A stretch of DNA of 64,000 nucleotides from Fibrella aestuarina BUZ 2 (lineage in GTDB: Bacteria > Bacteroidota > Bacteroidia > Cytophagales > Spirosomataceae), in assembly GCF_000331105.1 (NCBI RefSeq), contig NC_020054.1, forward strand, positions 2,574,813-2,638,812, read 5' to 3'. Made by a program: the position numbers and the translations under genes. The stretch's first letter is position 1. Every line of letters begins with the position of its first letter. Shown one piece after another: positions 2,662 to 56,774 of this stretch. The notes below the pieces were generated by a model that had not been told where the DNA came from, searched no databases, and was given only the letters and a program-made list of their open reading frames with translations.

Positions 2662-2693
2662 AGGCATCAACTCCACAATAAACGGCTACGACC

Positions 2694-2990: not shown

Positions 2991-3011
2991 TAGTCGCCTG
3001 CGCTGTGCATT

Positions 3012-3118: not shown

Positions 3119-3122
3119 TGGT

Positions 3123-4904: not shown

Positions 4905-5071
4905 AAAAAAACTGTTTGCAGTCTGCGGGTTACAGAGCACCAATACGTTGCCAGCACGACCCATTTGCCGCGAGCAGGACAACCGAAAGTAGTAAACTGG
5001 AAACCGTAAACGTTCTTTCTCGTAACAGCGAAGCTTTCGGGAAAGTTACCACCATACAAAAACTCACTGCT

Positions 5072-5710
5072 ATGACCCTCGATTGGCTTTTTGCCGCCTG
5101 TATAGGCATTGGTTTGGCGGCCTGCTGCGGTTTTCGCGTGTTTGTGCCCATGCTGATCGCCGCCCTCGCTACCAAACTAGGTTACATTGATCCGCAACCC
5201 GGCTTCGAATTTCTGGGCAGCTGGAAAGCGATTATCGGTTTGTCGGTAGCAGCCGCCTTTGAACTGGGTGCTTACTACGTACCCTGGCTCGACAACGCCC
5301 TTGATACCATCGCTATGCCGGCCGCTGTTATTGCAGGTACGTTGCTATCGACCTCGTTTTTGCACATCAACGACGAAACCTACCGATGGGGCATGGGCCT
5401 GATGCTGGGGGGCGGCTCAGCGGGGCTGATTCAGGCCGGTACCAGCCTGTTGCGTCTCGGCTCGGCCATGACGACGGGCGGGGTAGCCAACCCGGTAGTG
5501 GCCACCGGCGAAAACGCGGCCTCGCTCGGGTTGTCGTTGCTAACGGTCTTTCTGCCCCTCTTTGCGTTCGTGTTGATTGTCTGTCTGCTGCTATACGTTG
5601 CCTTTCGGCTCTTGGCCCGGCGCCGGCTCCGCTTCACCAAATCTGACACGACCCAGCAGGCCGGAACACCCCTCAGCCCGTTCCCGCGTAGTAATAATGG
5701 AAAGCACTAA
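5072..5710 (+). CDS. DUF4126 family membrane protein
   Basis: A 212-residue protein with about five hydrophobic segments and the typical DUF4126 opening, in which a small-residue helix is followed by GFRVFVPMLIAALATKLG. Members are uncharacterised inner-membrane proteins. ATG 5072 is preferred over an in-frame start at 4916, because the upstream extension overlaps the divergent ABC gene and is not family-like. The C-terminus is a short basic and polar tail. The next gene is 50 bases downstream on the same strand. Confidence 0.85.
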   Translation: MTLDWLFAACIGIGLAACCGFRVFVPMLIAALATKLGYIDPQPGFEFLGSWKAIIGLSVAAAFELGAYYVPWLDNALDTIAMPAAVIAGTLLSTSFLHINDETYRWGMGLMLGGGSAGLIQAGTSLLRLGSAMTTGGVANPVVATGENAASLGLSLLTVFLPLFAFVLIVCLLLYVAFRLLARRRLRFTKSDTTQQAGTPLSPFPRSNNGKH

Positions 5711-10126: not shown

Positions 10127-11599
10127 ATGCGTTTCATTTCCGCACTCAGCCAGCAGCTTAAAAACCGCCGGATTGCCGTAGGCTTTGTGGTGGCGGTGCT
10201 GTTGGTCGGGTTCGGATTTGCGATGTCGGTGCATAGTTACAACCGGTCGCAGCGGGATAACCAGAACATTACCCACTCGTTTCAGGTCCTGAATCGGCTG
10301 GAGGATATTCTGTCGCTGACCAAAGACGTGGAGACCGCCGTGCGGGGGTACCTGGGGTCCAACGACCGGGTCTTTCTGGCCCCCTATTACTCGGCCTACC
10401 CCCGAATACCCGGCCAACTGGATGCCCTGCGAAAGCTCTACGGCAGTGATTCGGCAAAACTCAAAAGCGTCGACACACTGGAATACCTCGTTGGGCGCAA
10501 ATTGGCCATCGCCCGGAAACAGATTTGGCTGACGGCCCAAAACGACATGACCGTCCGGCGTGAGCACCTGCTGATCGGGAAGCTGCGGATGGACAAGGTA
10601 CGGGCGCACGCGGGCAAGATGATTGCCTCGGAGCAGCGGCTGATGGAGCAGCGGAGTGTGCTGGCGCGGGCGTCGTTTGGCAACACGCTGGTTATCATTT
10701 TTGCGCTGTCGATGCTGACGTTCATCGCGTTGGTTACGCTGTATCGGCTGCTCGATAACGAACTGCGGCAGCGGGCCGAAAACGAGGCGCAACTGCGCGC
10801 TTATGAACAGCAATTGCAGGAGAAAATCCAGCAGCTGGAAACCTCGAATCAGGAATTGGAACGGATGGCCTTTGTGGCCAGTCACGACATGCAGGAGCCG
10901 CTCCGGAAGATTCGGGCGTTTGGCGACCTGCTCACCCAACGGTTTAGCCCATCGCTGGAAGACGACGGACGAATGTTTCTGAGCAAGATCATCACCTCTG
11001 CCGATCGGATGTCGATGCTGATTCGCGACCTGCTGAACTTCTCCCGCTTGACGAGCCGCCGTGATCTGTTTGTGCCCGTAACCCTCAATGAATTGGTCGA
11101 CAAGGTGATAGGCGACCTGGAACTACCCATCCAGGAAACAAACGCCACCGTTAGCCGGGGTGAGCTACCCATCATCGACGCGGCTACCCTGCAACTGGAA
11201 CAGCTGTTTCTCAACCTCATCACCAACGCGCTGAAATACGTGCAGCCCGGTGTGGCCCCCCAGGTACGTATCGAGGCTGAGGTTACCGACAGCGCGCTTC
11301 ATCCGGGCCTGGTGTTTGGCGAACGGTACGTTCGGCTCACGATTCGTGACAACGGCATCGGGTTCGACGAAAAATACCTCGACCGGATTTTCGACATCTT
11401 CCAGCGGCTGCACAACAAAACGAATTACGAAGGCACCGGCATCGGGCTGGCTATCTGCAAACGGGTCGTCACCTACCACAATGGCTACATCACGGCCCAA
11501 AGCCAGGAAGGTGTTGGTACGACGTTTATCGTCCTGCTGCCCGAAAAGCAGCCTAAAGCGGCTCCCGATCTGCCGCACGCCAAACTGCTGTTACACTAA
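10127..11599 (+). CDS. CHASE3-domain sensor histidine kinase
   Basis: Membrane-bound sensor kinase. TM1 at about residues 15-36, a CHASE3 extracytoplasmic sensor (about 40-175, including TKDVETAVRGYLGSNDRVFL) and TM2 at about 184-205. A coiled-coil linker follows, then HisKA with phospho-acceptor His in FVASHDMQEPLRKI, and HATPase with LFLNLITNALKY, DNGIGFDE and GTGIGLAICK. No PAS or receiver domain is present. The H-box resembles the phytochrome/bacteriophytochrome-like kinase group. No response regulator gene is adjacent, so the partner is unknown. It follows hslV by 71 bases on the same strand and ends three bases before the convergent PBP4 gene. Confidence 0.92.
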   Translation: MRFISALSQQLKNRRIAVGFVVAVLLVGFGFAMSVHSYNRSQRDNQNITHSFQVLNRLEDILSLTKDVETAVRGYLGSNDRVFLAPYYSAYPRIPGQLDALRKLYGSDSAKLKSVDTLEYLVGRKLAIARKQIWLTAQNDMTVRREHLLIGKLRMDKVRAHAGKMIASEQRLMEQRSVLARASFGNTLVIIFALSMLTFIALVTLYRLLDNELRQRAENEAQLRAYEQQLQEKIQQLETSNQELERMAFVASHDMQEPLRKIRAFGDLLTQRFSPSLEDDGRMFLSKIITSADRMSMLIRDLLNFSRLTSRRDLFVPVTLNELVDKVIGDLELPIQETNATVSRGELPIIDAATLQLEQLFLNLITNALKYVQPGVAPQVRIEAEVTDSALHPGLVFGERYVRLTIRDNGIGFDEKYLDRIFDIFQRLHNKTNYEGTGIGLAICKRVVTYHNGYITAQSQEGVGTTFIVLLPEKQPKAAPDLPHAKLLLH

Positions 11600-11601
11600 C
11601 G

Positions 11602-13272
11602 CTACAGCCCCGTCAGCAACACAAACAACCGCTCGATCTGGGGGGTGAGGGCGGCGTATTTGCCTTCCTGGTATTTGTTGATCATGAGCGAGAAGCTCAT
11701 CAGGCTCCCGTCTTTGGCCGTGAAATAGCCCGCGTAGGCCCGGACGCCCTCGATGGTGCCGCTTTTGGCCCGCACGTTGCCGGCCGCTTTGGTGCCTTTG
11801 GCCAGCCCACGTACCGTGCCGCTCTGCCCCACCACCGGAATGCTGGCATAGAAGGCTGGGTACGTTCCCTCGCGGGTCATGGCCATCAGAAAGCTCGTCA
11901 TGTTGTCGGCGGTCATCGCCCCCACCGTCGAGAGGCCGCTGCCGTCGCGCGGGCGGAAACCATCCAGATTGACACCCTTGGCCTGCCAGTAGCCCGTAAC
12001 GGCCGACACCGACTCGGGCCAGGTAGTAGGCCGCTGTTTGATCTGCCGCGCCGCCGACCGCAGCAGCGCTTCGGCGTAGAGGTTAATGCTCTGGAAATTA
12101 GTCTCGCGGACCAGATCGCTGAGCGGTGGCGACGTGTACCGATACACTTCCGTGCGGCTGGCAGTTGTTGCCGATGTGCTGCCCGTTGCCGACACAAACG
12201 GCCCCGGTGTATAGGCGACGGGCGTGGAGACGGGTTGGGCCGCCGTATTGGCCGCCAGTAGTTCCGCAGGCAACGTACCCAGGCGGTAGGAGGTAGGCGT
12301 ACCCGACACGCGGATGCTGTCGCGCCGGAGTTGCTCGGTCAGCGCATAAGCCACGAAGTAAGCGGGGTCGGGCATGGCGCCTTTCACGGCAAACTCAGGT
12401 ACTGCCCCGGATAGGTTGGGTGGCACCGTGCCTTCGAGCGTCGCCGTATTCTGGAACGGTACGCCGTAGATATCGACCTCGTCGCCAGAGCCAGCGGGGC
12501 CCGTGGATACGCGGTTGTTCAGGCTGAGGTAGGGGAGGGCGGGGTCGGTGCGCAGGACGGGGGCCGGTGCGTCGACCGTAGTCCCCGGCTTGAATACCAC
12601 CCGGTACAGGTTCTCGTTGAAGTTCAGCCCAAACAGGCCCGCTCCGTAATAATTGCCCAGATCGCCAAAGGGCCAGGTGTCGGGTATGGGCTGGCCGTCA
12701 AAAAAGCTGGCGTCGCCGATGATTGCGCCGTCGATGCGCCGGATCCCCGCCTGCCGCACCCGGTTCGACACGTCGCGCAGGAAGGCCACCCAGGCCGGGT
12801 AGCCCGTAAACCGACCGCTGGCCAGGGAGGGGTCACCGGTGCCGCGCAGGTACAGATTACCCGTCAGAACGCTGTCTTTGAGCGTGCCGTCGTATTCGAG
12901 AAAGGTGCTGTAGGTGAAGGTGCTGCCCAATGTAGCCAGGGCCGTACCCGTCGAAACGAGCTTCAGCGTGGAGGCGGTGGGGAGGCTACGGAACTCGTTT
13001 TGCCCAAAGACACACAACCCGTCGCTGATCCGCCGAACCGACAGGGCCACGGTCCCATTCTGCACCAGCGGCCCCCGTTGCAGGCTTTCGGCCCAGTCGC
13101 GCAGGCGTTGCAGCGCGGCGGAGTCGGGTGGGGGCAGGGTGTAGACCGCGCTGTTGGCCAGCTGGGGCGCCCGCCCCGCCAGCAGCGTAACGGCATCGGC
13201 GTGCAGGAAGTAACTGCTGAGCAGGCCCAGCAGCACGGGTAACAGACGGATCAGGGTAGACGAACGACGCAA
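11602..13272 (-). CDS. dacB: D-alanyl-D-alanine carboxypeptidase/endopeptidase, PBP4 (DacB) family
   Basis: Class C low-molecular-weight PBP (peptidase S13) that trims or cleaves peptide cross-links in the periplasm. It has a signal peptide (about residues 1-27, hydrophobic LLPVLLGLLSSYFL). The nucleophile motif is STLK (in PTASTLKLVSTG), the second motif lies in PRDGSGLS, and the third is KSG (RAKSGTIEG). The large insert between the first and second motifs, typical of the family, is present. The start is TTG 13272, forced by an in-frame TAA a few codons upstream. The 556-residue length is a little above the usual 470-500. Probably transcribed from the palindromic promoter at 13305-13320. 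Confidence 0.92.
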   Translation of the reverse strand: MRRSSTLIRLLPVLLGLLSSYFLHADAVTLLAGRAPQLANSAVYTLPPPDSAALQRLRDWAESLQRGPLVQNGTVALSVRRISDGLCVFGQNEFRSLPTASTLKLVSTGTALATLGSTFTYSTFLEYDGTLKDSVLTGNLYLRGTGDPSLASGRFTGYPAWVAFLRDVSNRVRQAGIRRIDGAIIGDASFFDGQPIPDTWPFGDLGNYYGAGLFGLNFNENLYRVVFKPGTTVDAPAPVLRTDPALPYLSLNNRVSTGPAGSGDEVDIYGVPFQNTATLEGTVPPNLSGAVPEFAVKGAMPDPAYFVAYALTEQLRRDSIRVSGTPTSYRLGTLPAELLAANTAAQPVSTPVAYTPGPFVSATGSTSATTASRTEVYRYTSPPLSDLVRETNFQSINLYAEALLRSAARQIKQRPTTWPESVSAVTGYWQAKGVNLDGFRPRDGSGLSTVGAMTADNMTSFLMAMTREGTYPAFYASIPVVGQSGTVRGLAKGTKAAGNVRAKSGTIEGVRAYAGYFTAKDGSLMSFSLMINKYQEGKYAALTPQIERLFVLLTGL

Positions 13273-14928: not shown

Positions 14929-14944
14929 TTAGCGAAGGCTTAGA

Positions 14945-15013
14945 GCGTAGGGCTTGGGGGGTATCGTCCGTGGTTTATTCGTACACCCAAGCCCTACACC
15001 CCAAGCCCTACGC
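14945..15013. repeat. Intergenic inverted repeat with duplicated right arm
   Basis: Arm 14945-14962 pairs with 14996-15013 at 17 of 18 positions. The right arm is preceded by a second copy of the same sequence (about 14982-14997), so the element is a degenerate tandem repeat folded on itself. It lies directly before the accA start codon, between co-directional genes. Confidence 0.8.
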
Positions 15014-15020
15014 GCACTCT

Positions 15021-15974
15021 ATGAGAACTTATCTCGACTTTGAGAAGCCGCTGGCTGATCTGGAAGGCCGGTTAGACGAACTGAAGCGGCTGGGTGAAAC
15101 CAGCAAAGTGGATGTGACGGAAGCCATTGCGTCGCTGGAAGAAAGCATCGCCAAGCTGCGGGCCGAACTGTTTAACAACCTCACCCGCTGGCAGCGGGTG
15201 CAACTCTCGCGCCATCCCGACCGCCCCTACACGCTCGATTATATTGAGCGCATGTGCGATCAGTTTATCGAATTGCACGGCGACCGCACCGTGCGCGACG
15301 ATCCGGCGATGGTGGGTGGTTTCGCCGAAATAGATGGCCAGACCATCATGATCATCGGGCAGCAGAAAGGGCGCAACACCAAGCAACGGCAGCAGCGGAA
15401 TTTCGGCATGCCCAACCCCGAGGGCTACCGCAAGGCCCTGCGACTGATGAAAATGGCCGAGAAGTTCAACAAGCCCATCGTTACGCTGATCGATACGCCG
15501 GGTGCGTTTCCGGGCCTCGAAGCTGAAGAACGGGGACAGGGCGAGGCCATCGCCCGCAACCTCAAGGAAATGTTTATGCTGAAGGTGCCGGTGATCTGCA
15601 TCGTCATCGGCGAAGGCGCTTCGGGCGGGGCGCTGGGCATTGCCATCGGCGACCGCGTGATGATGCTCGAAAACACCTGGTACTCGGTTATTTCCCCCGA
15701 AAACTGCTCGACGATCCTCTGGCGGAGCTGGAATTACAAAGAACAGGCGGCCGAAGCCATGAAGCTGACCGCTGCCGACATGCAATCGTTCCGCCTGGTC
15801 GACGGCATCATCGACGAACCTACGGGCGGCGCCCACGCCGACCACGCGGCGATGGCACAGATCCTTAAAGACACGATCCTCAACACCATCGCCGAACTCA
15901 ACACCCTGACCGCCGACGAGCGTATCGATCAGCGCATCGAGAAATTCTGCTCGATGGGGGTGGTGATTGAGTAA
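15021..15974 (+). CDS. accA: Acetyl-CoA carboxylase carboxyltransferase subunit alpha
   Basis: Alpha subunit of the carboxyltransferase that moves the carboxyl group from biotin to acetyl-CoA, the first step of fatty acid synthesis. The 317-residue protein shows the full family pattern: [17 protein letters not shown] at the N-terminus, [76 protein letters not shown] and SVISPE. ATG 15021 gives the standard N-terminus; the frame is open to 14970 but that part is repeat DNA. accD is not adjacent. Convergent with the carbonic anhydrase gene, with a long hairpin between. Confidence 0.97.
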
Positions 15975-15986
15975 ACGTAGGTTGTA

Positions 15987-16068
15987 GGGTTTGTATTTAC
16001 TGTAAACGGTTGGTTGACGCGCGATTTTGCTTCCGCGTCAGCCAACCGTTTACAGTAAATACAAACCC
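15987..16068. repeat. Long intergenic inverted repeat (35-bp arms, 12-base loop)
   Basis: Arms 15987-16021 and 16034-16068 pair at 34 of 35 positions. It fills the space between convergent accA and the carbonic anhydrase gene, and would form a very stable hairpin in transcripts from either side. Confidence 0.95.
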
Positions 16069-16078
16069 CCAAAACGAA

Positions 16079-16831
16079 TCAATTTTCCCGCACCTCGCGG
16101 TTGCCCAATGCTTGGATGGGCCGATTGTTCTTCGGGTATTTCTGGGCGAATGCACCCTCCTGTCCGGCAGAAATAGCGACCGGGTTCTTGAAAATAAACC
16201 AGTCCTGCTGCTGGGTACAGCTTGCCGACATGGGCGAGTCAGCATAGGTGTAATAAGCCTTATTCTGGGGTAATAAATCGGCAGGGTTGATGCTGACGCC
16301 CGCCACCACGTTGGGTTGATCCTGCGTCGTGGGCAGGTTGGCGAGCACTTGTTGCAGAACGGCATTTTGTGGGCCATTCGTCAGAAAAACGCCTAGCACG
16401 ATAATCGCGCCCGTTCGTTCATCCTGATTAACCAGATGCAACTCCATCGGAGCGGCCTTTCCGTTGAGGGTGTGCTCGCTGCCCCGGTGAACGTGAAACT
16501 GCTTCAGCAGGTACGTTACCCCATTATAGCTAATCGCGTTTTTGCCATCACCCAGCACCTCGATGGTGTGGCCGTCGTCGAGCACCTGCAAGGGCATCGA
16601 CTGGTAACTAAACGTCAGCGCAGGCAGGCTCCCCTTCCGGGTTTCGGTCGTGTCGATGTCGATGGGCGACATTGCCTGTCCGGCGCAGGCCGGAGCCCCT
16701 TCCGATCGCCAGTTGGTTTGTTCGTAATTCCAGTCGGTAGGGGCGGGTGTTGCGTCGTCGGGTGCCGTTTTAGAGCAGCCCATAGCCGCGAGCAAAAGCA
16801 GCCCGACGGTGGCGGGGAAAATCCGGTTCAT
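16079..16831 (-). CDS. Alpha-carbonic anhydrase-like lipoprotein, altered active-site loop
   Basis: Eukaryotic-type alpha carbonic anhydrase fold, exported as a lipoprotein (LLAAMGCSK, lipid Cys at about residue 19), so periplasmic. The SPIDI motif is present. The three zinc ligands look intact: His113 and His115 in QFHVH and His132 in MELHLV, with Glu119 in GSEH. The usual SLTTPPC loop, which carries the gatekeeper Thr199 (human CA II numbering) and substrate pocket, reads DSPMSASC, with Met at the Thr position. The N-terminal region between WNYE and SPIDI is also shorter than usual. Zinc binding is likely; normal CO2 hydration activity is doubtful. Stand-alone gene. Confidence 0.85.
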   Translation of the reverse strand: MNRIFPATVGLLLLAAMGCSKTAPDDATPAPTDWNYEQTNWRSEGAPACAGQAMSPIDIDTTETRKGSLPALTFSYQSMPLQVLDDGHTIEVLGDGKNAISYNGVTYLLKQFHVHRGSEHTLNGKAAPMELHLVNQDERTGAIIVLGVFLTNGPQNAVLQQVLANLPTTQDQPNVVAGVSINPADLLPQNKAYYTYADSPMSASCTQQQDWFIFKNPVAISAGQEGAFAQKYPKNNRPIQALGNREVREN

Positions 16832-46798: not shown

Positions 46799-47428
46799 AT
46801 GCACGGTACCATTATTCACTATGATACGCTGACCCAATGTGGCCTGCTTCGGACAGAGGCAGGTCAATTGCATTATTTCCGGCGCGACGACGTGGCCGAG
46901 GCGACGGGTTTTGCCGCTGGTCGGCAGGTGTCGCTTCGCGCGGGTACGCTCGCCGACACGGGCGGTAGTCAGATGGACATCGTGGAAGGGCTGGCGGCCA
47001 TACGGCACGTCGAGCAGGCCCGCCGCGTGGGTACGTTGCCTGCTCAGCCCGCACCACCACCGCCCAAACGCGCTACCCAGTCGATCAGTTGGGTCGGTGG
47101 CTGGCTCTCGCTTGCGGCGCTGCTTTGCCTGCTGCTGGCGGGGGGGAATCAGTTTAGCGAGCCATCGGTGTATGCCGCTGCCGCTCCCAAACTCATCGGG
47201 TCGGTGTTCGGCGTGGCGGCGGCTGTGTTGCTGGTTATCCTCGCAATTTTGTTCTTTACACACAAAACGCGCCGCCTCGTACGTTGGACATACTGGCTGA
47301 CGGTCTGGAGTTCGCTCTTCGCCTACATTGCCCAAACAATCGACGGGTTCGAGATCGATGCCGCCGCTACCTGCTACGGCTACTCGCTCATCGCCCTGTT
47401 GGTTGCGGTGTTTTTTGTCCGAAAATGA
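46799..47428 (+). CDS. Four-TM protein with cold-shock-like N-terminal domain
   Basis: A 209-residue protein. Residues 1-70 (MHGTIIHYDTLTQCGLLRTE, then LHYFRRDDVAEATGFAAG and VSLRAG) follow the spacing of a cold-shock/OB fold: G-x-I-x-x-[FY]-D, G-x-I/L near residue 15, and YF-x-x-x-D. After a proline-rich linker (about 80-92) come four TM helices (about 97-115, 132-153, 164-182, 191-207). A nucleic-acid-binding or OB-like head on a membrane anchor is unusual. Real function unknown. First gene of the likely operon 46799-56774; the next gene starts 32 bases later. Confidence 0.7.
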   Translation: MHGTIIHYDTLTQCGLLRTEAGQLHYFRRDDVAEATGFAAGRQVSLRAGTLADTGGSQMDIVEGLAAIRHVEQARRVGTLPAQPAPPPPKRATQSISWVGGWLSLAALLCLLLAGGNQFSEPSVYAAAAPKLIGSVFGVAAAVLLVILAILFFTHKTRRLVRWTYWLTVWSSLFAYIAQTIDGFEIDAAATCYGYSLIALLVAVFFVRK

Positions 47429-47460
47429 TCCATTATCCTCGTCACCACACGACCCGTTAC

Positions 47461-48723
47461 ATGAAGTTTACCGCCCTTACGCTCGCCATTGCCTTATTGA
47501 TGACCGCCTGTGGTGGCGGAAAGAAACGCGATAAACAGGAAGCGAGTACGCCCACAAAAACCGAGCAGGTCGGCAAGGTTCATTTCTTTCTGGAAACATC
47601 GGCCAGCATGGGGGGCTACCTCAACGGTGGCACTACGTTCAAAGACGTCGTTTCGGACGTAGTGACGAAAGCCAACCAACTACGACCCGTATCGCTCAAC
47701 ACCATTTCGGGAAAGACGCAGCCGGTATCGGGCGACGTCAATACGTTTGTGGCGCAGATGGCGACAACGCCGCTGGCAACGGGCAAAAGCTCGGAGCTCC
47801 ACAAGATTTTCCGGGAAGTGGGGGAGCGCGCCAAAGGCAACGACGTGGCCATTTTCGTGTCGGACTGCATTCTGTCCTTTCCCGACGCCGACATCAAGCG
47901 TGACCCCGAAGTGAACCGAAACAACGCGTCGAGCACGCTGAAAAACAGCATTTACGATCAGTTTGCCACCTTCAGCAAGCAGGGAATTGGCGCCACGGTG
48001 CTGGCCTACACCTCGCCGTTCAACGGCACGTATTACACCTACCAGAATCAGAAACAAAAACTGGCAGGCGAGCAGCGGCCCTTCTACATCTGGATTATTG
48101 GCAAGCAAAGCCTCGTGGGTACGTTCGCCGGCCAATTGCTCGAAAGCCTGTCGACAACCCCGGCCAAACGACTCGATTTCGGCGCGGCGGGTGCCCTGAA
48201 AGCCTACGACCTGTTGTTCAGCGCCAACAAAAGCGGCGACTGGCGGGCCGAACGCAACAACGTGACGGAGATCGAAATGGGCCGCAAAGCCAAGCCCGTC
48301 GAGTTTGCCATCGCCGTGAATCTGAACGCGCTGCCCGGCTACGCGCAGGAAGAGACGTACCTGCAAAAGAACCTGAATGTGGCGGTCGACAATGGGGCCG
48401 TGAAACTGGTGAAAGTGCAGCGCAAAGCGGCCCTCAACACCGACCGTATGAGCGATCGGGAGCAAAAACTCCTCAGCCAGAATACGCACGTGCTGACCTT
48501 CCACGTTGATAATCTATTCGACGAAACCGCCACGGTGACGCTGAAACTGCCCGTGCGGTTCGATTCGTGGTACACCAACTGGTCGACAATGGACGACCGG
48601 ACGGCGACCGGGCGGCAGGGCAAAACCTTCGCCCTCGAACACCTGATGACCGGCGTGCGCGAAGCCTACCAAACCAGTGGCAATGAGTTTGCCGCTATGA
48701 GCATTAAACTGAGCAAAAACTAA
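47461..48723 (+). CDS. vWA-like lipoprotein
   Basis: A 420-residue lipoprotein: signal peptide with lipobox LLMTACG (Cys at about 19). Residues about 40-250 look like a von Willebrand A-type Rossmann fold: a first strand VHFFLETSASMGGYL, where the usual DxSxS metal site reads ETSAS, and a later strand DVAIFVSDCILSF with an Asp where the vWA fold has its conserved one. The C-terminal half (about 280-420) contains beta-rich segments (HVLTFHVDNLFDETATVTLKL, in parts). Metal binding is uncertain because of the altered site. In the operon it precedes a three-TM protein and the tubulin-like gene; vWA proteins accompany other tubulin-superfamily systems. Confidence 0.7.
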   Translation: MKFTALTLAIALLMTACGGGKKRDKQEASTPTKTEQVGKVHFFLETSASMGGYLNGGTTFKDVVSDVVTKANQLRPVSLNTISGKTQPVSGDVNTFVAQMATTPLATGKSSELHKIFREVGERAKGNDVAIFVSDCILSFPDADIKRDPEVNRNNASSTLKNSIYDQFATFSKQGIGATVLAYTSPFNGTYYTYQNQKQKLAGEQRPFYIWIIGKQSLVGTFAGQLLESLSTTPAKRLDFGAAGALKAYDLLFSANKSGDWRAERNNVTEIEMGRKAKPVEFAIAVNLNALPGYAQEETYLQKNLNVAVDNGAVKLVKVQRKAALNTDRMSDREQKLLSQNTHVLTFHVDNLFDETATVTLKLPVRFDSWYTNWSTMDDRTATGRQGKTFALEHLMTGVREAYQTSGNEFAAMSIKLSKN

Positions 48724-48816
48724 ATGCACAATGTAGAATTGACAATGCACAATGATTGGCTGAACCGTGTTGACCACAACAGGCATTGTGCATTGTCAAT
48801 TCTACATTGTGCATTT
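48722..48816. repeat. Long intergenic inverted repeat (33-bp perfect stem)
   Basis: Arms 48722-48754 and 48784-48816 are perfect reverse complements with a 29-base loop, made of AATGCACAATG-type units. Between co-directional operon genes; the arm overlaps the last base of the upstream stop codon. Confidence 0.97.
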
Positions 48817-48826
48817 CTCATCCCCC

Positions 48827-49201
48827 ATGTTCCAATCGATCTACGAACTCTTCCTGGGTCAGAATAACGACCCAATTTATGCCGACGAAATTTTCACGCC
48901 CGTGGGCACCATGACCGTGCTGGTGGCGTTGGTCGTGGCGGCGGTGTTTTACGTGGCACTAGGCCGCTGGAAACCCGTTTTTCACCGCACGCTGCACTGG
49001 GCGCTCACGCTCGTAGGGGTGCTGATCTTCGGGTATGCCTACGCCGTCTGGTACGCCAAAGACCGCACCGGTGCCGACGATGCCGACTCCTACATGACGA
49101 GCTTCGGCGGGGTCAACGTGTTGCTGGCGGCTATTCTGTTCTTTTTGTTCTCGCTGGGCCTTCGCTACGCCTCGATTTTCGCCCGCAGAACGCCATTTTA
49201 A
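48827..49201 (+). CDS. Small three-TM protein
   Basis: A 124-residue inner-membrane protein with helices at about residues 26-45, 59-77 and 94-114. The loop between the second and third is charged (KDRTGADDADSYM). No family recognised. It lies between the vWA-like lipoprotein and tubulin-like genes on the same strand, so it is probably the membrane partner of that system. The start is ATG 48827; the frame is open upstream only through the inverted repeat. Confidence 0.75.
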   Translation: MFQSIYELFLGQNNDPIYADEIFTPVGTMTVLVALVVAAVFYVALGRWKPVFHRTLHWALTLVGVLIFGYAYAVWYAKDRTGADDADSYMTSFGGVNVLLAAILFFLFSLGLRYASIFARRTPF

Positions 49202-49203
49202 TT

Positions 49204-49345
49204 AATGGACAATGCACGATGGATCATGTACGATGAATAGTGTACAATGTACAATGGCTTGCGAATGAGCAACTTTTGCCTAAGCGGAGATTCATTGTAC
49301 ATTATCCATTGTGCATCGTACATTATCCATCGTGCATTGTCCATT
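49204..49345. repeat. Long degenerate inverted repeat (about 53-bp arms)
   Basis: Arms 49204-49257 and 49293-49345 are reverse complements at roughly 85 percent, built from about 10-base units of the CATTGTGCATTATC type. Same family as 48722-48816 and 33070-33168. It lies directly before the tubulin-like gene. Confidence 0.9.
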
Positions 49346-49353
49346 CCCTTCTT

Positions 49354-50832
49354 ATGAAACTCTTCCTTTTCGGCATTGGGGGCACTGGAGCCCGTGTGTT
49401 ACGCTCGCTGACGATGTTGCTGGCGGCGGGGGCCAACGTACCTGCCGACCTGACGATCATCCCGATTCTGCTGGACATGGACATGCAGAATGGCGACACC
49501 GAGCGGGCCCTTCGGCTGGTTGAATTATACCGGAGCCTGCGGGCGGGCGGCTACCCCAACGGCCCGCAGGACCACAACGGTCGTCGCCCATTTTTTGGCA
49601 CGAACCTGCAACCGCTGGGTACGTTGCAGGCCGACAACGCGCAGCAGCAGATCGGCGATTCGGTGCTGCCCAAACTCACCGACCATCAGGGGACGTTCGA
49701 AGAGTTTCTGAACGTGAGCAGCATGGACGAAATCGACCGCGAATTTCTGAAGCTGCTCTACGACAACTCGGCCAAGCCGACCAACGCCGAACTGAAGCTG
49801 AACCTCTCGGTGGGCTTCAAGGGCAATCCGAACATCGGCAGCGTGGTGTTCAACGCGCTTGAAGATTCGCCCGTCTACAAGTACTTCACGGGTGCCTTCA
49901 ACGATCAGACCGACCGGATTTTTGTTATCAGCTCGATCTTCGGTGGAACGGGCTCGGCGGGGTTTCCGCAACTAGTGAAGCTGTTGCAGCACCCCAGCCA
50001 GAAAATGCCCATCCGCAACGCCAAAAAGGGGGCGGTGACGGTGATGCCCTATTTTGCGCTGGAAGAAAACAGCCAAAGTGCCATCGACCAGAACCGGTTT
50101 CTGTCGAAGACCAAGGCGGCGCTCTCGTACTACCAGAGCCAGATCGACCTCGACGCGCTTTATTACATCGGCGACCGGCCCGGTGCCAAGCTGTACCCCA
50201 ATGTGGAGGGTGGGGCCAAACAGGCTAACAATGCGCACGTGGTGGAAATGCTCGCCGCCGAGGCCGTCCTCGACTTCGCCCGGCGTGGCCCCGGCGAGTT
50301 CAGCACCGACAAGCGGTACCTGGAATATGGCCTGCGCCGCAACGACCGCAGCCTCGATTTGCCTCACTTCGCCGATGGTACGTACCAGAATCTGCTGGAG
50401 CCTATGGTTCGGTTCACCTACGCCGCCAAGTTCTACACCGACTTTCTGCCGAATAACTTGGGCGAGGCGTTTGCCAAAAACCTGAACCTGCCCCAGACCC
50501 TGCGCTCAGGTACGTTCTACACCTCGCTGGATAACTTCATCAACGCCTACAAAGCGTGGTTGCGTGAGCTGTCGGCCAACGATCGCAGCTTTGCCCCGTT
50601 TGACCTCGACACCGATTTCAACGGCTTGGTCCGGTCGAAGCGGATCGAGACCGGCTTTTTCAACAAAGGCATCAGCGAGGGCTTTTTGCAGGATGCCGCT
50701 GGCAAGGGCGAGAATAGCCTGAAGGCCGCTTTCCCAACCAATGAGGCCCGTTTTATGCAATTGTTGATGGAAGTGGCCGATAAATGCGTTGAGAAATTAG
50801 GACCGCTCAACCGGCAACTGGCCGACGTATGA
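49354..50832 (+). CDS. Tubulin/FtsZ-superfamily protein (Tubulin_2-like)
   Basis: A 492-residue cytoplasmic protein. The N-terminus MKLFLFGIGGTGARVLRSLT fits the first nucleotide-binding loop of tubulins (GxGGxG), and FGGTGSAG at about residue 197 corresponds to the tubulin signature loop GGGTGSG. The spacing between them (about 185 residues, longer than the roughly 85-100 of FtsZ) agrees with the divergent Tubulin_2 group rather than FtsZ. The C-terminal half is helical and not recognisable. Predicted GTPase, possibly polymer-forming. Start ATG 49354; an earlier frame would translate the repeat. It is separated from its actin-like partner only by the DUF559 insertion. Confidence 0.8.
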   Translation: MKLFLFGIGGTGARVLRSLTMLLAAGANVPADLTIIPILLDMDMQNGDTERALRLVELYRSLRAGGYPNGPQDHNGRRPFFGTNLQPLGTLQADNAQQQIGDSVLPKLTDHQGTFEEFLNVSSMDEIDREFLKLLYDNSAKPTNAELKLNLSVGFKGNPNIGSVVFNALEDSPVYKYFTGAFNDQTDRIFVISSIFGGTGSAGFPQLVKLLQHPSQKMPIRNAKKGAVTVMPYFALEENSQSAIDQNRFLSKTKAALSYYQSQIDLDALYYIGDRPGAKLYPNVEGGAKQANNAHVVEMLAAEAVLDFARRGPGEFSTDKRYLEYGLRRNDRSLDLPHFADGTYQNLLEPMVRFTYAAKFYTDFLPNNLGEAFAKNLNLPQTLRSGTFYTSLDNFINAYKAWLRELSANDRSFAPFDLDTDFNGLVRSKRIETGFFNKGISEGFLQDAAGKGENSLKAAFPTNEARFMQLLMEVADKCVEKLGPLNRQLADV

Positions 50833-50914
50833 TTTACCCCCCGCCCTGAAGGGAGCCCGCTGGCTGCCGTACCGAGCATACGCCAGCGGGCTCCTTTCAG
50901 GGCGGGGGGTAAAT
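50832..50914. repeat. Palindromic repeat, copy A (33-bp arms)
   Basis: Arms 50832-50864 and 50882-50914 pair at 32 of 33 positions, with a 17-base loop. The arm begins at the last base of the tubulin-like stop codon. The arm sequence (TTTACCCCCCGCCCTGAAGG and on) is shared with copy B at 51331-51455; together they bracket the DUF559 gene. Confidence 0.95.
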
Positions 50915-50957
50915 AACTGAGCGGAGGAGATTAGATGTAAACAACGATCCCACCAGT

Positions 50958-51323
50958 ATGGCTACAGACATGTTTTTCGGCGCGCAACCTGTTTTATTTG
51001 AACAGGCTAAACAGTTAAGGGAAGCCATGACGCCTGCCGAGTTGCTACTCTGGGAGCAGTTGAGACAGAACAAGCTCGACGGGTTTCGGTTTAAAGCGCA
51101 GCATCCGATTGCTTATTTTATCGCTGACTTTTATTGCCATAAAGCCCGATTGATAATTGAAGTCGACGGAGGGGTGCACGACGTACCTGAACAGATTGAG
51201 TATGACAAAAATCGCACCTACCTGCTCAACGAACTGGGATTAACGGTCATTCGCTTTCGCAACGCATCCATTTTAACAGACATCAATCAAGTACTGACAA
51301 CGATCCGAAGCTATCTTTCATAA
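50958..51323 (+). CDS. DUF559 (Vsr-like) endonuclease-domain protein
   Basis: A 121-residue protein of the DUF559 family, distantly related to very-short-patch-repair and PD-(D/E)xK nucleases. The core shows LREAMTPAELLLWEQLR, FRFKAQHPIAYFIADFYC, IIEVDGGVHD (Glu and Asp of the predicted metal site), YDKNRTYLLNELGLTVIRF and a final helix. It stands between two copies of the same palindrome inside an operon of unrelated genes, which looks like an insertion of a small element. Nuclease activity is expected but unproven. Codon use is slightly more AT-rich than that of its neighbours. Confidence 0.88.
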   Translation: MATDMFFGAQPVLFEQAKQLREAMTPAELLLWEQLRQNKLDGFRFKAQHPIAYFIADFYCHKARLIIEVDGGVHDVPEQIEYDKNRTYLLNELGLTVIRFRNASILTDINQVLTTIRSYLS

Positions 51324-51330
51324 TGTATAG

Positions 51331-51455
51331 CTGCTGTTTACCCCCCCGCCCTGAAGGGAGCCTGCTGGCGCAAGCACATTGCTTACGCCGGTCTGCCAGT
51401 TCGGAAGCTACTGGCGCGCCAGCAGGCTCCCTTCAGGGCGGGGGGTAAACAGCAG
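51331..51455. repeat. Palindromic repeat, copy B (39-bp arms)
   Basis: Arms 51331-51370 and 51417-51455 are reverse complements except for one extra C in a C-run; the 46-base loop contains a smaller hairpin (GCCAGT/ACTGGC). Its outer arm matches copy A at 31 of 32 bases. It lies between the DUF559 stop and the actin-like gene. Confidence 0.95.
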
Positions 51456-51476
51456 GGAACCATGAACTTCCAGTAA

Positions 51477-54400
51477 ATGCCTCATATCCTTCGCATTGAT
51501 ACCGACCCGAATGTTAGTCAGCAGAACCATAACGGCTGGACAGGGTCCCCGGCGGGCCTGACGGGCAACCGCATCGAACATATTCCTGATACGCTTTCTG
51601 GCGCGGGTGGCGGAGCGGCGGGTGCCGCTGCCAAAGCCGGTACGTCGATTCCGTCGCCGTTCGCGCGGCTGTATCTGTTCGATACGGCGTTCCGGATGGT
51701 GAAAAACAACTTGCAACCGGCCGAACTGAGCATGTACCACGTGCTGGTGTCGCACACGCTCGACCTGCTCGAACTGCTGTTTCAGGCGGGCAACTCCGAC
51801 GACCTGACCTACCGCCTCTGGAACCGGGGCGAACGGCTGGGCAAACTGGGTTCGGCGACAGGCGGGTCAATCTCGGGTGGTCGGCACCCACATCAGGTGC
51901 TGGCTAAAGCGCTGGAACTCGATTTCCGCAACGAATTGGCGGCGGTGCAGACTACCACGCTCATTTATTACAAAAATGCGCTGCTGGGCGGTACGTCGCC
52001 GCTCACGTTGGTGTTTACCTCGCCCAACTGGGAGCAGGAGCGGCAGAACAAGTTTATCGATCCGCCGAAGAGCAGCACGGGCCGCGTACTTTTCCAGAAC
52101 GAATACGTCCCCCTGCACCTGCGCGACGAAGGCTTTACGACGTACCTGCGCCGGTGGTATGAGCAGTACAACAACCAGATGCCGCAAGGTGGCTTCAAGG
52201 AATACCTCTACCGGGTCTTCTTCGACAGCGCCGTGTTGCCACCCGTAGCGGCGGGGCTGACGCTGGCCAACTTCGAACCCATTCAGGTACGTGGCGAGAG
52301 CACCAGCACGTTGCAGGTGCTGCCCGGCATGCCGCTCTACCGCGTGCGGGAAGACGACGTGCTGAACGACATCGAAGAAGGCTCCGACTTCGTGATGGTG
52401 CCGACGGTCGATTATTACACCCGCGAAACGATCAACGGGGCGGCAACGGACGTGCGCAAACCCCTCGCGCTGGCGTCGCGCATGGACGTGGCGGGGCGCT
52501 ACGTGAAAAACACGAACTGGAACAGCAACACCGTGATCATGCGGCAGCGCGATCTGGGGAGTGGTTTCCTGCTGTCGGAGCGGTTTCTGCCCGGCGTCGA
52601 CAATGTCAAATACCCGTTTGTCACGACCGACGATTTCCTGGAGGATTTTCTGGTTCGGATGCCCTACAAGCTCAACAGTGGCCGTTTCTTCACCGGTACG
52701 CCGGGCGACATGGAGTTTCTGCTGCCGGTGCGGAAAGAGTATTTCAACTTCTTCCGCATGGAAGATCTGGCCCGGCAACTGACGTTACGCACCGAAGACC
52801 GGGGCCTCGACCGCATCATCATTGCGTCGCTGGCGATCCCGATTCGGAACAACCGGACCGTCACGTTCCGCAAAGAATACAATCTCGGCAATCCCGATAC
52901 CATGCTCGAATTCCGGGCGGGTATTGCCTGTTTTCCGTTCTACCGCATCACGGTGCCCGACCCGGCCCTACAGGCGCTGAACGAGTACACCGTGATGCTG
53001 CTCGACGGCAGTAAAGACGAAGCCAATTTCCACGCAGCGCGGTCGGTGCGGTTCTTCCAGTTCGAGCAGGTGGTCAACAACCAGCCGCTCGTGGTAGCGG
53101 CGCCCGAACACCGCACGCCCAAGTCGGGGCCCACGCAGGCGGCCTCGTATTACTACAAAGTGCCGCAGGCGTTTGATCTGCTGGAGGTGCAGCTACAGCG
53201 CAACGGCATGCCCTACCGGGGCCTGCTGCTACCCAAATTCACGATCATCAGCGAGCGCGGCTACAAGCCGTTTACGTTTGCCATCGACTTCGGAACGTCG
53301 AACACCCACGTTGCCTACACGGACACCAATATGGGCAATAGCGACCCGAAAACACTGGCGATCAGTGATGACAAGGTGAACCTGGACGCCGACGAGTTGC
53401 AGATGGTGACGCTCAACAAGCCCTACGATGGCTACGAGGCGCAGACGCCCTACGCCCGGTACCGGCTCGGGGCGGGTTACGGGCAACTGGTTGAATTTGA
53501 GACGTTTATTCGGCGTGAATTTGTGCCCGCCATCATTGGTAGCCAATACGGTTCGCCGTTTACGTTCCCGCTGCGCACGACGGTGTATGAAAAAACGGGC
53601 TCGGCCGATGCGGGCGATAACCTGTTCAACAAGATCAACCTTGGCTTCAACATCGACCTCGAAACGGGTAGCACGGGCGTCAACCGCTACGTGACGAACC
53701 TGAAGTGGCTGTTCGAGAATCAGCCGGGCGATCCTATGAACCGGCCGCGGGTGCGGGCGTTTTTCGAAACGCTGCTGCTGCTGATGCGCAACAAGGTGCT
53801 GCTGAATCAGGGTAACCTCAACGACACCAAGATCACGTGGCTGGCCCCAACGAGTATGCAGGCCGACACGGAGGACAAGCTCGTGGAGGAATGGGAGAAG
53901 GCCTTTCGGCGGGTGTTTAAAACCACGCAGTATTTCCGCCCTAACCCGGTTCCAGAATCGCTCGCGCCGCATTTCTACCTCGTCACAAAGGGCGTCAAAT
54001 CCTTTGCCGATGCGGTAAACGTCGATATCGGGGGCGGCACGGCCGATATTATGCTGTTCATGAAGCAGCAGAACCGTTACCTGAATACCTCATTCCGCTT
54101 TGCCGGTTACGACATTTGGGGTGGTGGGCTTAATCAGCAGGGGCACCCGTCGCATCAGAAAGACAATGGCTTCATCCTCAACTACCTGCAATACCGCCGC
54201 ACGCTCAGTCAGGCCCCGGCCCCGGAAGATCAGATTCTCGACACCTTTCTGGCCAACAACGACCTGAGCGCCGAGGATATCGTGAGCCTGCTGTTCCGCA
54301 ACAACGATCACTACAAGTTCACGCAGTCGATCATCGACGGTCGCCCCGCGCTTCGGATCGTGCTGTTCCTGCACTACTCGGCCATTGTGTACCACCTCGT

Positions 54401-55169
54401 GCAACTGATCGAGGCCAACCAGATGAGCCTGCCGCGTTACCTGACCTTCACGGGCCGGGGCAGTCAGTACCTGAAAATGCTGGGCTCGTCGCGGCGATTG
54501 ATCGAGTTCACGAAGATGCTCTTCCGGGCGTATACGAACCTGCCCGTCCCGCCTGATTTTGAGGTGGTGATGAGCGAAAACCCGAAGGAAACGACCGCCA
54601 ACGGGGCGGTGCTGTTCGAAAACGCTAGCCCGCTGGAGAAGGACAAGTATAGCAGTCGCCAGACGGTCTGCTATTGGGGCAACGCGCCGCTTGAACAGAA
54701 AGCGCTGCCCCAACCGACAGATGCACCACCCACCCAACCGGGTTTCGGAGCCAATATCAATACGTGGGGTAATCCGGCAACGTACCCGGCCGGGGAACTG
54801 CAACCGACCACCCCGCCCGTGCAGGTAGTGAACGCGCCGTTCGAGTATCGCCGAACGAAGATTGGCGAGGTGAGCGGCAACCGCACCTTCCACGACTCGG
54901 TATTGCTCAACGTGAAGCGGTTCCTGGAACTGACCCTCACCGACCGCGACATCGCTTATTACCTGAGCGAGCATAAGATTCAGACGCCCGAGCAGTACCT
55001 GTCGTTCCTGATTGGGCCCGACGTAACCCGCAGCGGTGCCGTCTACGACAGCTACATGCTGGCCCGGCAAGGCATGGAGCAGGAGCCCAACCAGGCCGTT
55101 TCGGAGACGTATTTCTTCCTCCCGCTGAAACACGCGCTCTACGAATTATCAAAACACATCGCAAGCTGA
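51477..55169 (+). CDS. Large actin/Hsp70-fold ATPase (SrfB-like?)
   Basis: A 1230-residue cytoplasmic protein. Residues 1-590 are of unknown fold, with a conserved-looking IPSPFARLYLFDTAF near 58. The ATPase follows: phosphate-1 motif FAIDFGTSNTHVAY at about 600, phosphate-2 motif VDIGGGTADIMLF at about 850, and an adenosine-type motif LTFTGRGSQYL at about 985. The order and spacing fit the Hsp70/actin/MreB superfamily with long inserts. Very large proteins of this fold include virulence factor SrfB; a relationship is possible but not shown. C-terminal about 200 residues (Pro-rich part then helical) unknown. Likely works with the tubulin-like protein upstream. Confidence 0.85.
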   Translation: MPHILRIDTDPNVSQQNHNGWTGSPAGLTGNRIEHIPDTLSGAGGGAAGAAAKAGTSIPSPFARLYLFDTAFRMVKNNLQPAELSMYHVLVSHTLDLLELLFQAGNSDDLTYRLWNRGERLGKLGSATGGSISGGRHPHQVLAKALELDFRNELAAVQTTTLIYYKNALLGGTSPLTLVFTSPNWEQERQNKFIDPPKSSTGRVLFQNEYVPLHLRDEGFTTYLRRWYEQYNNQMPQGGFKEYLYRVFFDSAVLPPVAAGLTLANFEPIQVRGESTSTLQVLPGMPLYRVREDDVLNDIEEGSDFVMVPTVDYYTRETINGAATDVRKPLALASRMDVAGRYVKNTNWNSNTVIMRQRDLGSGFLLSERFLPGVDNVKYPFVTTDDFLEDFLVRMPYKLNSGRFFTGTPGDMEFLLPVRKEYFNFFRMEDLARQLTLRTEDRGLDRIIIASLAIPIRNNRTVTFRKEYNLGNPDTMLEFRAGIACFPFYRITVPDPALQALNEYTVMLLDGSKDEANFHAARSVRFFQFEQVVNNQPLVVAAPEHRTPKSGPTQAASYYYKVPQAFDLLEVQLQRNGMPYRGLLLPKFTIISERGYKPFTFAIDFGTSNTHVAYTDTNMGNSDPKTLAISDDKVNLDADELQMVTLNKPYDGYEAQTPYARYRLGAGYGQLVEFETFIRREFVPAIIGSQYGSPFTFPLRTTVYEKTGSADAGDNLFNKINLGFNIDLETGSTGVNRYVTNLKWLFENQPGDPMNRPRVRAFFETLLLLMRNKVLLNQGNLNDTKITWLAPTSMQADTEDKLVEEWEKAFRRVFKTTQYFRPNPVPESLAPHFYLVTKGVKSFADAVNVDIGGGTADIMLFMKQQNRYLNTSFRFAGYDIWGGGLNQQGHPSHQKDNGFILNYLQYRRTLSQAPAPEDQILDTFLANNDLSAEDIVSLLFRNNDHYKFTQSIIDGRPALRIVLFLHYSAIVYHLVQLIEANQMSLPRYLTFTGRGSQYLKMLGSSRRLIEFTKMLFRAYTNLPVPPDFEVVMSENPKETTANGAVLFENASPLEKDKYSSRQTVCYWGNAPLEQKALPQPTDAPPTQPGFGANINTWGNPATYPAGELQPTTPPVQVVNAPFEYRRTKIGEVSGNRTFHDSVLLNVKRFLELTLTDRDIAYYLSEHKIQTPEQYLSFLIGPDVTRSGAVYDSYMLARQGMEQEPNQAVSETYFFLPLKHALYELSKHIAS

Positions 55170-55176
55170 ACGGAGT

Positions 55177-55272
55177 AACGCAAAGAGCGCGAAGGTTGAC
55201 GCGAAGAACGCTAAGTTCATAGCAAATAATAACCTTTGCGTTCTTCGCGTCAACCTTTGCGCTCTTTGCGTT
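55177..55272. repeat. Long intergenic inverted repeat (about 41-bp arms)
   Basis: Arms 55177-55217 and 55231-55272 pair at about 38 of 41 positions, with a 13-base loop, built from GCAAAGAGCGC-type units. Between co-directional genes of the cluster. Confidence 0.92.
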
Positions 55273-55289
55273 TAAATCCTCCCTCAACC

Positions 55290-56774
55290 ATGAAGACACT
55301 CCAGACATTTATCTTGCTGACCCTGGCGACGACCGCGCTGGCGCAGGAACCACAGACGGGCATCGAAAAAGGCACGTTTGGTATGGCGAAAGCCACGCTG
55401 GAATTTCTGGCGACTGATACGAAAACCTTCCCGAAAGCGCAGGAAACAACCTGCAAAGACTGCGTCGAGTACGGTGACTTGTCGGCGTTTATTCAGAAGA
55501 ACAGCCTCAAAAAAGCGGATGGCCTGCTCAACGATATTCAGAAGCACAGCCTCAAACTGAACGACGGCTTTGCGGCTGATGAGTTCAGCAGCGAAGGGGC
55601 CGTGCTGGATAGCCTACGGCAGTACATTCTTAATCGCGTAACCAGCGGCGCCGAACGCGCGCATCGCAAGCAACTGGCGTCATACGCGGCTTACCAGACC
55701 AAAATGACGGCGCTAGCTGGTGGAACCAATCCCGAAACTGCGCTGGATGAGCAAACAGCTGCTCTGCAGGAAGGCTCTGCCCCGGCCGACGACACGGATG
55801 CCGCCTCGGCAGGTACGGGCAGCTTTAGCTGGGGTACCTGGGCGTTCTGGCTATCGGTGCTAAACCTGCTTGGTCTGGGTTATCTGTTGGTTACCCGTCA
55901 GCAAGGCGGTGGCGGCAAAGTGGCAATGCAAAGCGACCGGGACGATGCCCGTATCGCTGGCTTGCAGGATGAAAACAACCGGCTGAGCAGCACCGTGGCC
56001 GAACTGGCCAACCGGCTCACGATGGCCGAAAAGAAACTGATGGCTATGCAGGGAGCGCAGGCACCGCCGAACCGCCCTCCCGCCGACCGGCCCAACGTAC
56101 CGCAGGGCAACCCCACGCAGGCAGCCCCCAACCCCATGCCTGCCAACCAGCCACGGCCCGCGCAGGGGCAAGGCTACGGTAACCAGCCCAATCCGTCGGC
56201 CATGCCCATGTCGGGCAGTAGCCAGATGAGTGCCCCCAACCAGCCAGCCACCCCCACACCGCCCCCCTCCAACGTGCGGCCTACGCCAACCATCCCGCCG
56301 CTGCCCGGGAACGTAGCGGGTGACCGCCCAGCCAGCGAGCGTCCAGCCGTAGAACGACCTGTTTCGTCGGGCATGCCAGCGCCCGAAATGCCCAGTTCGC
56401 AACCGGCTCCGCAGCCCGTGCCCGCGCCGCCAGCCATGCCTGCCGCACCGCCCGCGCCCAAGCGTCTGTACGCCCGCACGGCCGACCTCGGCAACGGTTT
56501 CAGCCTGGCGGGGCTCCTCGACCAACCCGAACGTGGCATCGTCTACGAAATCGAACTGACGAGCCCGTCGACGGCCTTATTCCGCGTGAGTCAGTCGCCC
56601 GAAGCCCAACAACTGGCCATGAGCGACCCGTATTCGTACCTAAGTGACGCCTGCCTGTATGAGAATCAGCCCGGTGGCCCCAACAGCCGCATCCAGACCG
56701 TAGCACCCGGCCAACTGGTGTTACAGGCCGACAAGTGGCAGATTACCGACAAAGCCCGGATCGGTTTTGTATAA
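55290..56774 (+). CDS. Exported TM, coiled-coil, proline-rich protein
   Basis: A 494-residue protein. Signal peptide about residues 1-18 (ending ALAQ). Periplasmic helical part to about 175 with a Cys pair TTCKDC. TM helix about 178-200 (WGTWAFWLSVLNLLGLGYLL). Cytoplasmic coiled coil about 220-255 (LQDENNRLSSTVAELANRL). Pro/Ala/Gln-rich linker about 258-390. C-terminal globular domain about 393-494 (KRLYARTADLGNGFSLAGLL, later PYSYLSDACLYEN and LQADKWQITDKARIGF). I have seen similar C-terminal domains in uncharacterised Bacteroidota proteins (memory only). Last gene of the cluster; a likely membrane anchor or linker for the cytoplasmic NTPases. Confidence 0.8.
   Translation: MKTLQTFILLTLATTALAQEPQTGIEKGTFGMAKATLEFLATDTKTFPKAQETTCKDCVEYGDLSAFIQKNSLKKADGLLNDIQKHSLKLNDGFAADEFSSEGAVLDSLRQYILNRVTSGAERAHRKQLASYAAYQTKMTALAGGTNPETALDEQTAALQEGSAPADDTDAASAGTGSFSWGTWAFWLSVLNLLGLGYLLVTRQQGGGGKVAMQSDRDDARIAGLQDENNRLSSTVAELANRLTMAEKKLMAMQGAQAPPNRPPADRPNVPQGNPTQAAPNPMPANQPRPAQGQGYGNQPNPSAMPMSGSSQMSAPNQPATPTPPPSNVRPTPTIPPLPGNVAGDRPASERPAVERPVSSGMPAPEMPSSQPAPQPVPAPPAMPAAPPAPKRLYARTADLGNGFSLAGLLDQPERGIVYEIELTSPSTALFRVSQSPEAQQLAMSDPYSYLSDACLYENQPGGPNSRIQTVAPGQLVLQADKWQITDKARIGFV

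Follow-up and report, generated by a model that had tools for sequence, protein, structure and literature searches.

The question raised by this locus of Fibrella aestuarina BUZ 2 is whether a tubulin-like and an actin-like NTPase, encoded next to a vWA-like lipoprotein and several membrane proteins, act as one machine at the cell envelope, and what such a machine would do. Such a partnership at the membrane is most familiar from cell division, where tubulin-fold FtsZ works with actin-fold FtsA. The locus lies within the window, the 64,000-nucleotide stretch that was analysed, and all of its genes are on the plus strand. The gene set that had been described from the letters was confirmed as real. 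First comes gene A (46799..47428, 209 aa by ORF call), which the TM scan divided into a soluble, weakly cold-shock-like N-terminus and about three TM segments. Its family contained 21 ORFs, found only within the fetched loci, and on this sequence evidence A is a lineage-specific first gene. Genes B, C, D, E and F follow. A DUF559 gene (50958..51323; Pfam 6.9e-34) separates D from E in the F. aestuarina locus alone (0/60 other loci) and was taken as an insert outside the system.

The sequence-only reading had claimed a tubulin fold for D and an actin/Hsp70 fold for E, and both were predicted. Gene D (49354..50832) encodes 492 aa with the predicted fold of a tubulin/FtsZ GTPase domain and a GGTGSG-type loop. 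The alignment placed the tubulin signature loop FGGTGSAG at residues 196-203 (49939..49962); the glycines of this loop were invariant across the 63-row D alignment, and the loop pattern was present in 57/61 D ORFs. A T7-like catalytic acid was not placed in D by eye. Compared with Pfam Tubulin_2, D reached 26.3 bits with a cut-off of 27, and its close homologues carry PF13809. The modelled C-terminus appeared compact and helical, with no long central coiled coil. Judged by its modelled fold and its close homologues, D is a divergent tubulin-superfamily protein of the FtsZl1/Tubulin_2-like type.

Gene E (51477..55169) encodes 1230 aa, and its C-terminal half has an ASKHA (actin/Hsp70) fold with the phosphate-binding loops, in a predicted structure close to DnaK. 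The ASKHA domain covers approximately residues 596-1060 (53262..54656, from VIA-align ranges shifted by 30 residues), and each ASKHA loop pattern was present in 55/59 long E ORFs. The N-terminal half was unmatched; the fold comparison returned nothing for model residues 1-565, which is not proof of a new fold. E was rejected as HSP70 proper, with no Pfam HSP70 match in the window E or 8 relatives. As to FtsA proper, 4/8 relatives gave matches below the Pfam cut-off and the window E gave none. Unlike FtsA, E carries an extra N-terminal half, and unlike FtsZ-FtsA the D-E system is absent from most sampled genomes of the phylum (D in 4/148).

The remaining genes encode the putative envelope partners. 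Gene B (47461..48723, 420 aa) had no Pfam match and no PDB sequence match. A profile-profile comparison, which drew on 6/8 vWA regions from the same genome after two had failed the motif filter, assigned B to vWA (91%), with the MIDAS-like motif ETSASM (residues 45-50, 47593..47610) aligned in register with the vWA MIDAS. In the alignment the first MIDAS Asp is replaced by Glu in most relatives; the MIDAS regular expression matched 46/56 B proteins. The lipobox expression matched 34/57, and the Cys was present in 25/25 alignment rows. At the level of sequence comparison, B is a lipoprotein with a putative vWA-like domain. Gene C (48827..49201) encodes a small protein with three TM segments in the TM scan, ending in -PF in F. 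aestuarina and 34/53 relatives. Gene F (55290..56774, 494 aa, ORF call and TM scan) combines a signal-like N-terminus, one TM segment at approximately residues 183-201, a coiled-coil, a Pro-rich stretch and a conserved C-terminal domain (56487..56771). In 9/46 F-cluster proteins, the TM scan showed no peak beyond residue 60. The C-terminal domain recurs at the end of a ZorA-like protein in locus L032 (E 2.2e-6, after one iteration). The link to the envelope through the lipoprotein and TM proteins that had been proposed earlier is plausible, and the finding of this domain on one ZorA-like subunit strengthens it.

The proposal had been staked in advance on finding the tubulin-like and actin-like genes side by side in other genomes, and this is how they were found. 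D was followed by E, in the same orientation, in 43/44 D copies of the family sample, with a gap of 21-751 bp (an additional D fragment from G238 and an additional E fragment from G180 were dropped before counting), and in 60/61 fetched loci (two same-genome pairs, L009/L062 and L022/L059, are both counted). An exception was G343, in which D and E-F are on separate contigs. The order B-C-D-E-F was seen in 51/61 loci and B-C-D-E in 2/61; the F part of the former count is soft, since the F profile also captures another family, F2, which BLAST tells apart. By a stricter count, a protein with the F C-terminal domain follows E within 600 bp in 50/60 loci, and the ten loci without one are L003, L004, L019, L030, L033, L036-L039 and L041. 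Co-divergence of D and E was the highest among the pairs computed (0.92) and exceeded their correlation with the flanks; for E and ZorA it was 0.88. The pairing was found in Bacteroidota and Cyanobacteria. Flanks were stable in many relatives; two of the flanking families we take to be KsgA and MgtE. The cassette was replaced as a block while its flanking neighbours stayed. These sequence and genome comparisons support B, C, D, E and F being passed on, diverging and being exchanged as a unit.

Further genes adjoin the system in some relatives. After F, a ZorA-like gene was found in 15/61 loci and a ZorB-like gene in 13/61, and the ZorB-like motif was present in 13/13 ZorB-like proteins. The motor pair occurred in 13/43 genomes with D vs clearly 0/58 others (Fisher p 4.5e-6, with a weak match in G172 left out). 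PADLOC matched the ZorB-like protein in 2/2 relatives tested and the ZorA-like protein in 1/2. To this extent the loci of some relatives resemble Zorya antiphage systems (PMC11890865). Unlike Zorya, the F. aestuarina locus lacks ZorAB, and PADLOC matched no ZorC, ZorD or ZorE in the seven proteins of the window or in the 8 relatives' proteins that were scanned. Zorya membership was rejected for the F. aestuarina locus, as no ZorA or ZorB match was found in its genome. PADLOC also gave no match worth the name for B-F, and no defence island was seen, with no PADLOC family matching more than two of 94 flanking proteins (of 127 eligible genes, scanned without a control set). Kinase genes adjoin the system in some relatives. 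The variants with a ZorAB-like motor, TerD, kinase, HSP70 or PspA, like the cassette swap, go beyond the earlier reading.

We consider it probable that B-C-D-E-F form one joint envelope-anchored NTPase machine. In the mechanism that we favour, B would face the periplasm, where it would sense a change or bind a partner outside. F would span the inner membrane, and its C-terminal domain would dock E and/or D in the cytosol. An ion-driven ZorAB-like motor would have been added in one group of lineages. The signal from B, or the motion of the motor where present, would then control D and E beneath the membrane, both in their nucleotide state and in their assembly. As to its role, the patchy occurrence, the exchange of the genes as a cassette and the ZorAB-like, TerD, kinase, HSP70 or PspA genes adjoining them in relatives point away from division and suggest that the machine watches over the envelope, or reacts there to the entry of a phage or to another breach; we hold this role with slightly more doubt than confidence. 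For the whole statement, machine, mechanism and role together, the case is evenly balanced, and the earlier interpretation as a whole is partly supported. Against it stand the absence of the motor pair from the F. aestuarina genome, the many stable flanks, the PADLOC results for B-F and for the flanking proteins, the split in G343 and the F proteins without a later TM peak. A bolder version is speculative and rather unlikely: a vWA sensor in the periplasm and a motor of the ZorAB type could be coupled via F to an obligate pair of tubulin-fold GTPase and actin-fold ATPase, as a new class of envelope machine. This would be a Zorya-like surveillance motor in which a two-component cytoskeleton output replaces the nuclease, and the F. 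aestuarina lineage would have lost the motor or not yet acquired it.

The best-surviving alternative starts from the FtsZl1 systems. Makarova and Koonin (2010; PMC2875224) described FtsZl1 (Tubulin_2) in operons with vWA and membrane proteins, with Bacteroidetes and cyanobacteria among the hosts. This precedent, cited in the sequence-only reading, is real but covers the vWA and FtsZl1 part of the gene set. The present operon likewise joins a divergent tubulin-superfamily protein, a vWA protein and membrane proteins, and some relatives have OmpA-like and kinase partners like those described in that paper. Unlike the majority of FtsZl1 proteins described there, D, at 492 aa, has no long coiled coil. 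No P-loop GTPase, an optional partner in FtsZl1 loci, was matched by Pfam among the seven window proteins. In the text consulted, neither an ASKHA ATPase nor a motor of the MotAB/ZorAB type is named, and the unnamed families of that paper (among B1-B9) may include E. By analogy, D could polymerise on the membrane in constitutive remodelling or vesicle formation, with an FtsA-like E tethering or driving it. The FtsZl1-like D with its vWA partner, the sub-threshold FtsA matches in E relatives and the PspA/IM30 gene adjoining D in G343 agree with this, whereas E is far larger than FtsA, the distribution is patchy (16/296 genomes of the class) and cassette swapping suits a housekeeping role less. 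Such remodelling is possible but on the whole unlikely.

A chaperone-type conflict system akin to those of Kaur et al. (2020; PMC7159879), in which an HSP70-like E would remodel D or effectors and the vWA protein would bind peptide, appears improbable. The GTPase-centric GAP1-N2 systems described there share tubulin, vWA, HSP70/ASKHA and membrane parts with ours, E has its DnaK-like fold, a canonical HSP70 follows E in L041, and one cyanobacterial E is fused to a kinase. However, E lacks an HSP70 match, and Kaur et al. place tubulin and HSP70 in separate themes without overlap, in Firmicutes/Actinobacteria. In our system the tubulin-like and ASKHA proteins instead form a fixed pair, and B-F gave no GTPase match; a GAP1/TRAFAC GTPase core had no match among the window proteins (for the relatives' flanks, 25 of 105 families were listed). 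Ter (TerD) stress systems (PMC7824862) are resembled in two relatives, with two TerD-family ORFs after E in L037 (one scanned by Pfam) and a PRTase near D in L038, whereas the operon proteins of the window include no matched TerD-type gene.

That D and E are co-transcribed neighbours without a joint machine is very improbable: the split in G343 and the flanking genes conserved among close relatives would fit, but D and E are still linked where D identity has fallen to 34% (Prevotella) or 25-29% (plasmids of cyanobacteria), block replacement of the cassette leaves its neighbours in place, and D and E correlate better with each other than with the flanks.

If the joint envelope-anchored machine is correct, it would represent a new cytoskeletal system, in which tubulin-fold and actin-fold proteins pair up outside division, nearly always linked and partly with an ion-driven motor. 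For FtsZl1, known as a family since 2010, this would provide testable partners, and the range of possible ZorAB partners would be widened. A reviewer, in an objection printed in PMC2875224, asked how an FtsZ-like protein in the cytosol could come into contact with a vWA protein in the periplasm; F together with ZorAB is a candidate bridge. Plasmid partition of the TubZ/ParM type was set aside, as most fetched loci are on large contigs with shared flanks; tblastn against plasmids returned 6 records, one of them a 1.77-Mb replicon.

The six same-strand genes proposed by the sequence-only reading were all recovered as ORF calls on the plus strand of the window, which spans contig positions 2574813-2638812. 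They encode a membrane protein (A, 46799-47428), a vWA-like lipoprotein (B, 47461-48723), a three-transmembrane (three-TM) protein (C, 48827-49201), a protein whose tubulin/FtsZ fold was established by computation (D, 49354-50832), a protein with an ASKHA (actin/Hsp70) fold in its C-terminal half (E, 51477-55169), and a TM protein with a conserved C-terminal domain (F, 55290-56774). Profile searches of a family sample of 101 genomes found D in 43 and E in 42. Adjacency of D and E in other genomes, chosen beforehand as the point on which the idea of a single machine hung, was borne out: E was the downstream same-strand neighbour for 43 of the 44 D copies, with a median gap of 131 bp (range 21-751), and 60 of the 61 fetched loci with D had E in that position. 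E of the 44th copy (genome G242, locus L041) was missed by profiles A4 and A2 and was found by an iterated profile. D was scarcer beyond the family: it occurred in 16 of 296 genomes sampled from the class and in 4 of 148 from the phylum. E was matched in 15 of 15 D genomes outside the family; four of these matches were weak (E-values 2e-8 to 2e-5), and one was truncated at a contig edge. The gene order was B-C-D-E-F in 51 of the 61 loci and B-C-D-E in 2, and a strict F-domain protein lay no more than 600 bp after E in 50 of 60. The analysis also established co-divergence of D and E, whose distance correlation of 0.92 was the highest among 25 pairings computed. The clear exception to linkage was genome G343, with D and E on separate contigs; there, D was beside a PspA/IM30 gene (PF04012, 4.5e-20; L027 1076-3466), and E was found with an F-domain protein (L071 9210-13856). 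In two loci from cyanobacterial plasmids (L003 and L004), D was accompanied by a small TM ORF and by an E that has the two ASKHA loops. A relative of B with a strict DxSxS motif was also present, and in L003 this B was on the opposite strand. Prevotella sp. oral taxon 299 carried B-C-D-E-F in order (L002 9999-17627) on a 1.77-Mb replicon that its record calls a plasmid.

A DUF559 gene (50958-51323) was placed between D and E in the window. Because this slot held no DUF559 gene in any of the 60 fetched loci with both D and E, and relatives in 3 of the 61 loci were elsewhere (the C-D gap in L016, upstream in L043 and L052), the gene was taken as an insert, as if it wanders into the operon. Other small ORFs occupied the D-E gap in L009 and L062 (one and the same genome), and the gap thus accepts other small inserts too; the two in L009 overlap (11523-12150), and the second looked PIN-like by eye. 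Among 53 relatives, 34 had a C protein ending in -PF, frequently as [RK]xTPF, and this tail is a possible candidate for cytosolic docking.

One upstream flank was common to fifteen loci and another to sixteen, and two downstream genes were common to 27 and 23 loci; the upstream families we take to be KsgA and MgtE, respectively. Two loci at this site, L021 (Spirosoma terrae) and L058, were compared with L043, L049, L051 and L052, which by their genome labels belong to one genus with L058. Between the two groups the first flank protein was 81-86% and the second 88-90% identical, while the identity was 34-35% for D, 29-30% for E and 24-26% for B. Inside each group, D and E were 90-95% identical among the pairs listed. 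The cassette is exchanged as one block.

Clustering of neighbours gave two families after F, of 449-700 aa (15 loci) and 202-234 aa (13 loci), resembling the ZorA and ZorB ion-driven motor pair of antiphage Zorya. All 13 copies of the shorter family had an Asp motif in a TM segment, and both copies tested matched PADLOC ZorB (best 7.7e-11). A hydropathy scan showed three TM peaks in the six listed copies of the longer family; one of two copies tested matched PADLOC ZorA (9.6e-8) and MotA_ExbB (0.0015), and the other gave no match at all. PDB sequence searches with one query of each kind returned nothing relevant. Searched against the family sample of 101 genomes, the ZorA-like profile matched 13 clearly and one weakly (6e-4, in G172, which is without D), the ZorB-like profile matched 13, and D and E were present in all 13 motor-pair genomes. 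The ZorA-like gene lay 647-3742 bp downstream of thirteen E copies on the same strand; the copy in G180 was on a different contig of a fragmented genome. There was one domain fusion: the F C-terminal domain also ends the ZorA-like protein of L032 (E-value 2.2e-6 after one iteration, 0.006 before). Profile searches of the window's own genome did not find the pair, and two MotA_ExbB matches lay elsewhere in it. In L034, a 931-aa TM and coiled-coil protein (1415-4210) between F and the ZorA-like gene weakly matched PADLOC LmuB (2.8e-5), perhaps through coiled-coil similarity alone.

We infer that the operon proteins form a complex. By the hydropathy scan, E lacks a TM peak and D has a single one, located inside the tubulin core; both proteins are probably cytosolic, as the F C-terminus would be. 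In such a complex B would act as a sensor, and D and E would assemble. We tentatively favour an envelope-surveillance or defence-like role over constitutive remodelling, which we consider somewhat less likely, and over a chaperone-type conflict system, which seems improbable. Against a defence role, the flanks were stable among many relatives and lacked recurrent PADLOC families, none matching more than 2 of the 94 flanking proteins scanned (127 eligible, without a control set). The main text of Makarova and Koonin 2010 (PMC2875224), on FtsZl1 and vWA proteins, mentions Hsp70, DnaK and FtsA zero times each and actin six times, with no partner named in the passages displayed. In text searches limited to open-licence papers, we recognised no published description of this gene set; extracts of PMC7159879, PMC9871819, PMC7824862, PMC12904381, PMC11890865 and PMC12505986 served for comparison.

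Other partner genes accompanied the cassette in relatives. Downstream of E in L037 were genes for a TerD-family protein (1.3e-43) and for an OmpA protein (1917-5166), and L038 had a PRTase gene upstream of D (12127-12960), which suggest a Ter-linked variant; L036 had a protein kinase after E. For the proteins after E at L037 3886-5166, L038 2222-3907 and L036 2384-3826, those scanned had no confident Pfam match, and by eye they could be degenerate ASKHA proteins. The cyanobacterial E protein P0274 carried a fused kinase domain. In L041, the gene directly after E encodes a canonical HSP70 (PF00012, 3.4e-76; 14937-16481), and next came a 689-aa protein without family assignment. In many close relatives of the window, which itself lacks it, F was followed by a separate family, F2 (cluster c5; L008 17034-18374), with a helical N-terminal region, a TM segment and, in the copy scanned, a WG repeat. 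L044 had the motor pair and F2 together.
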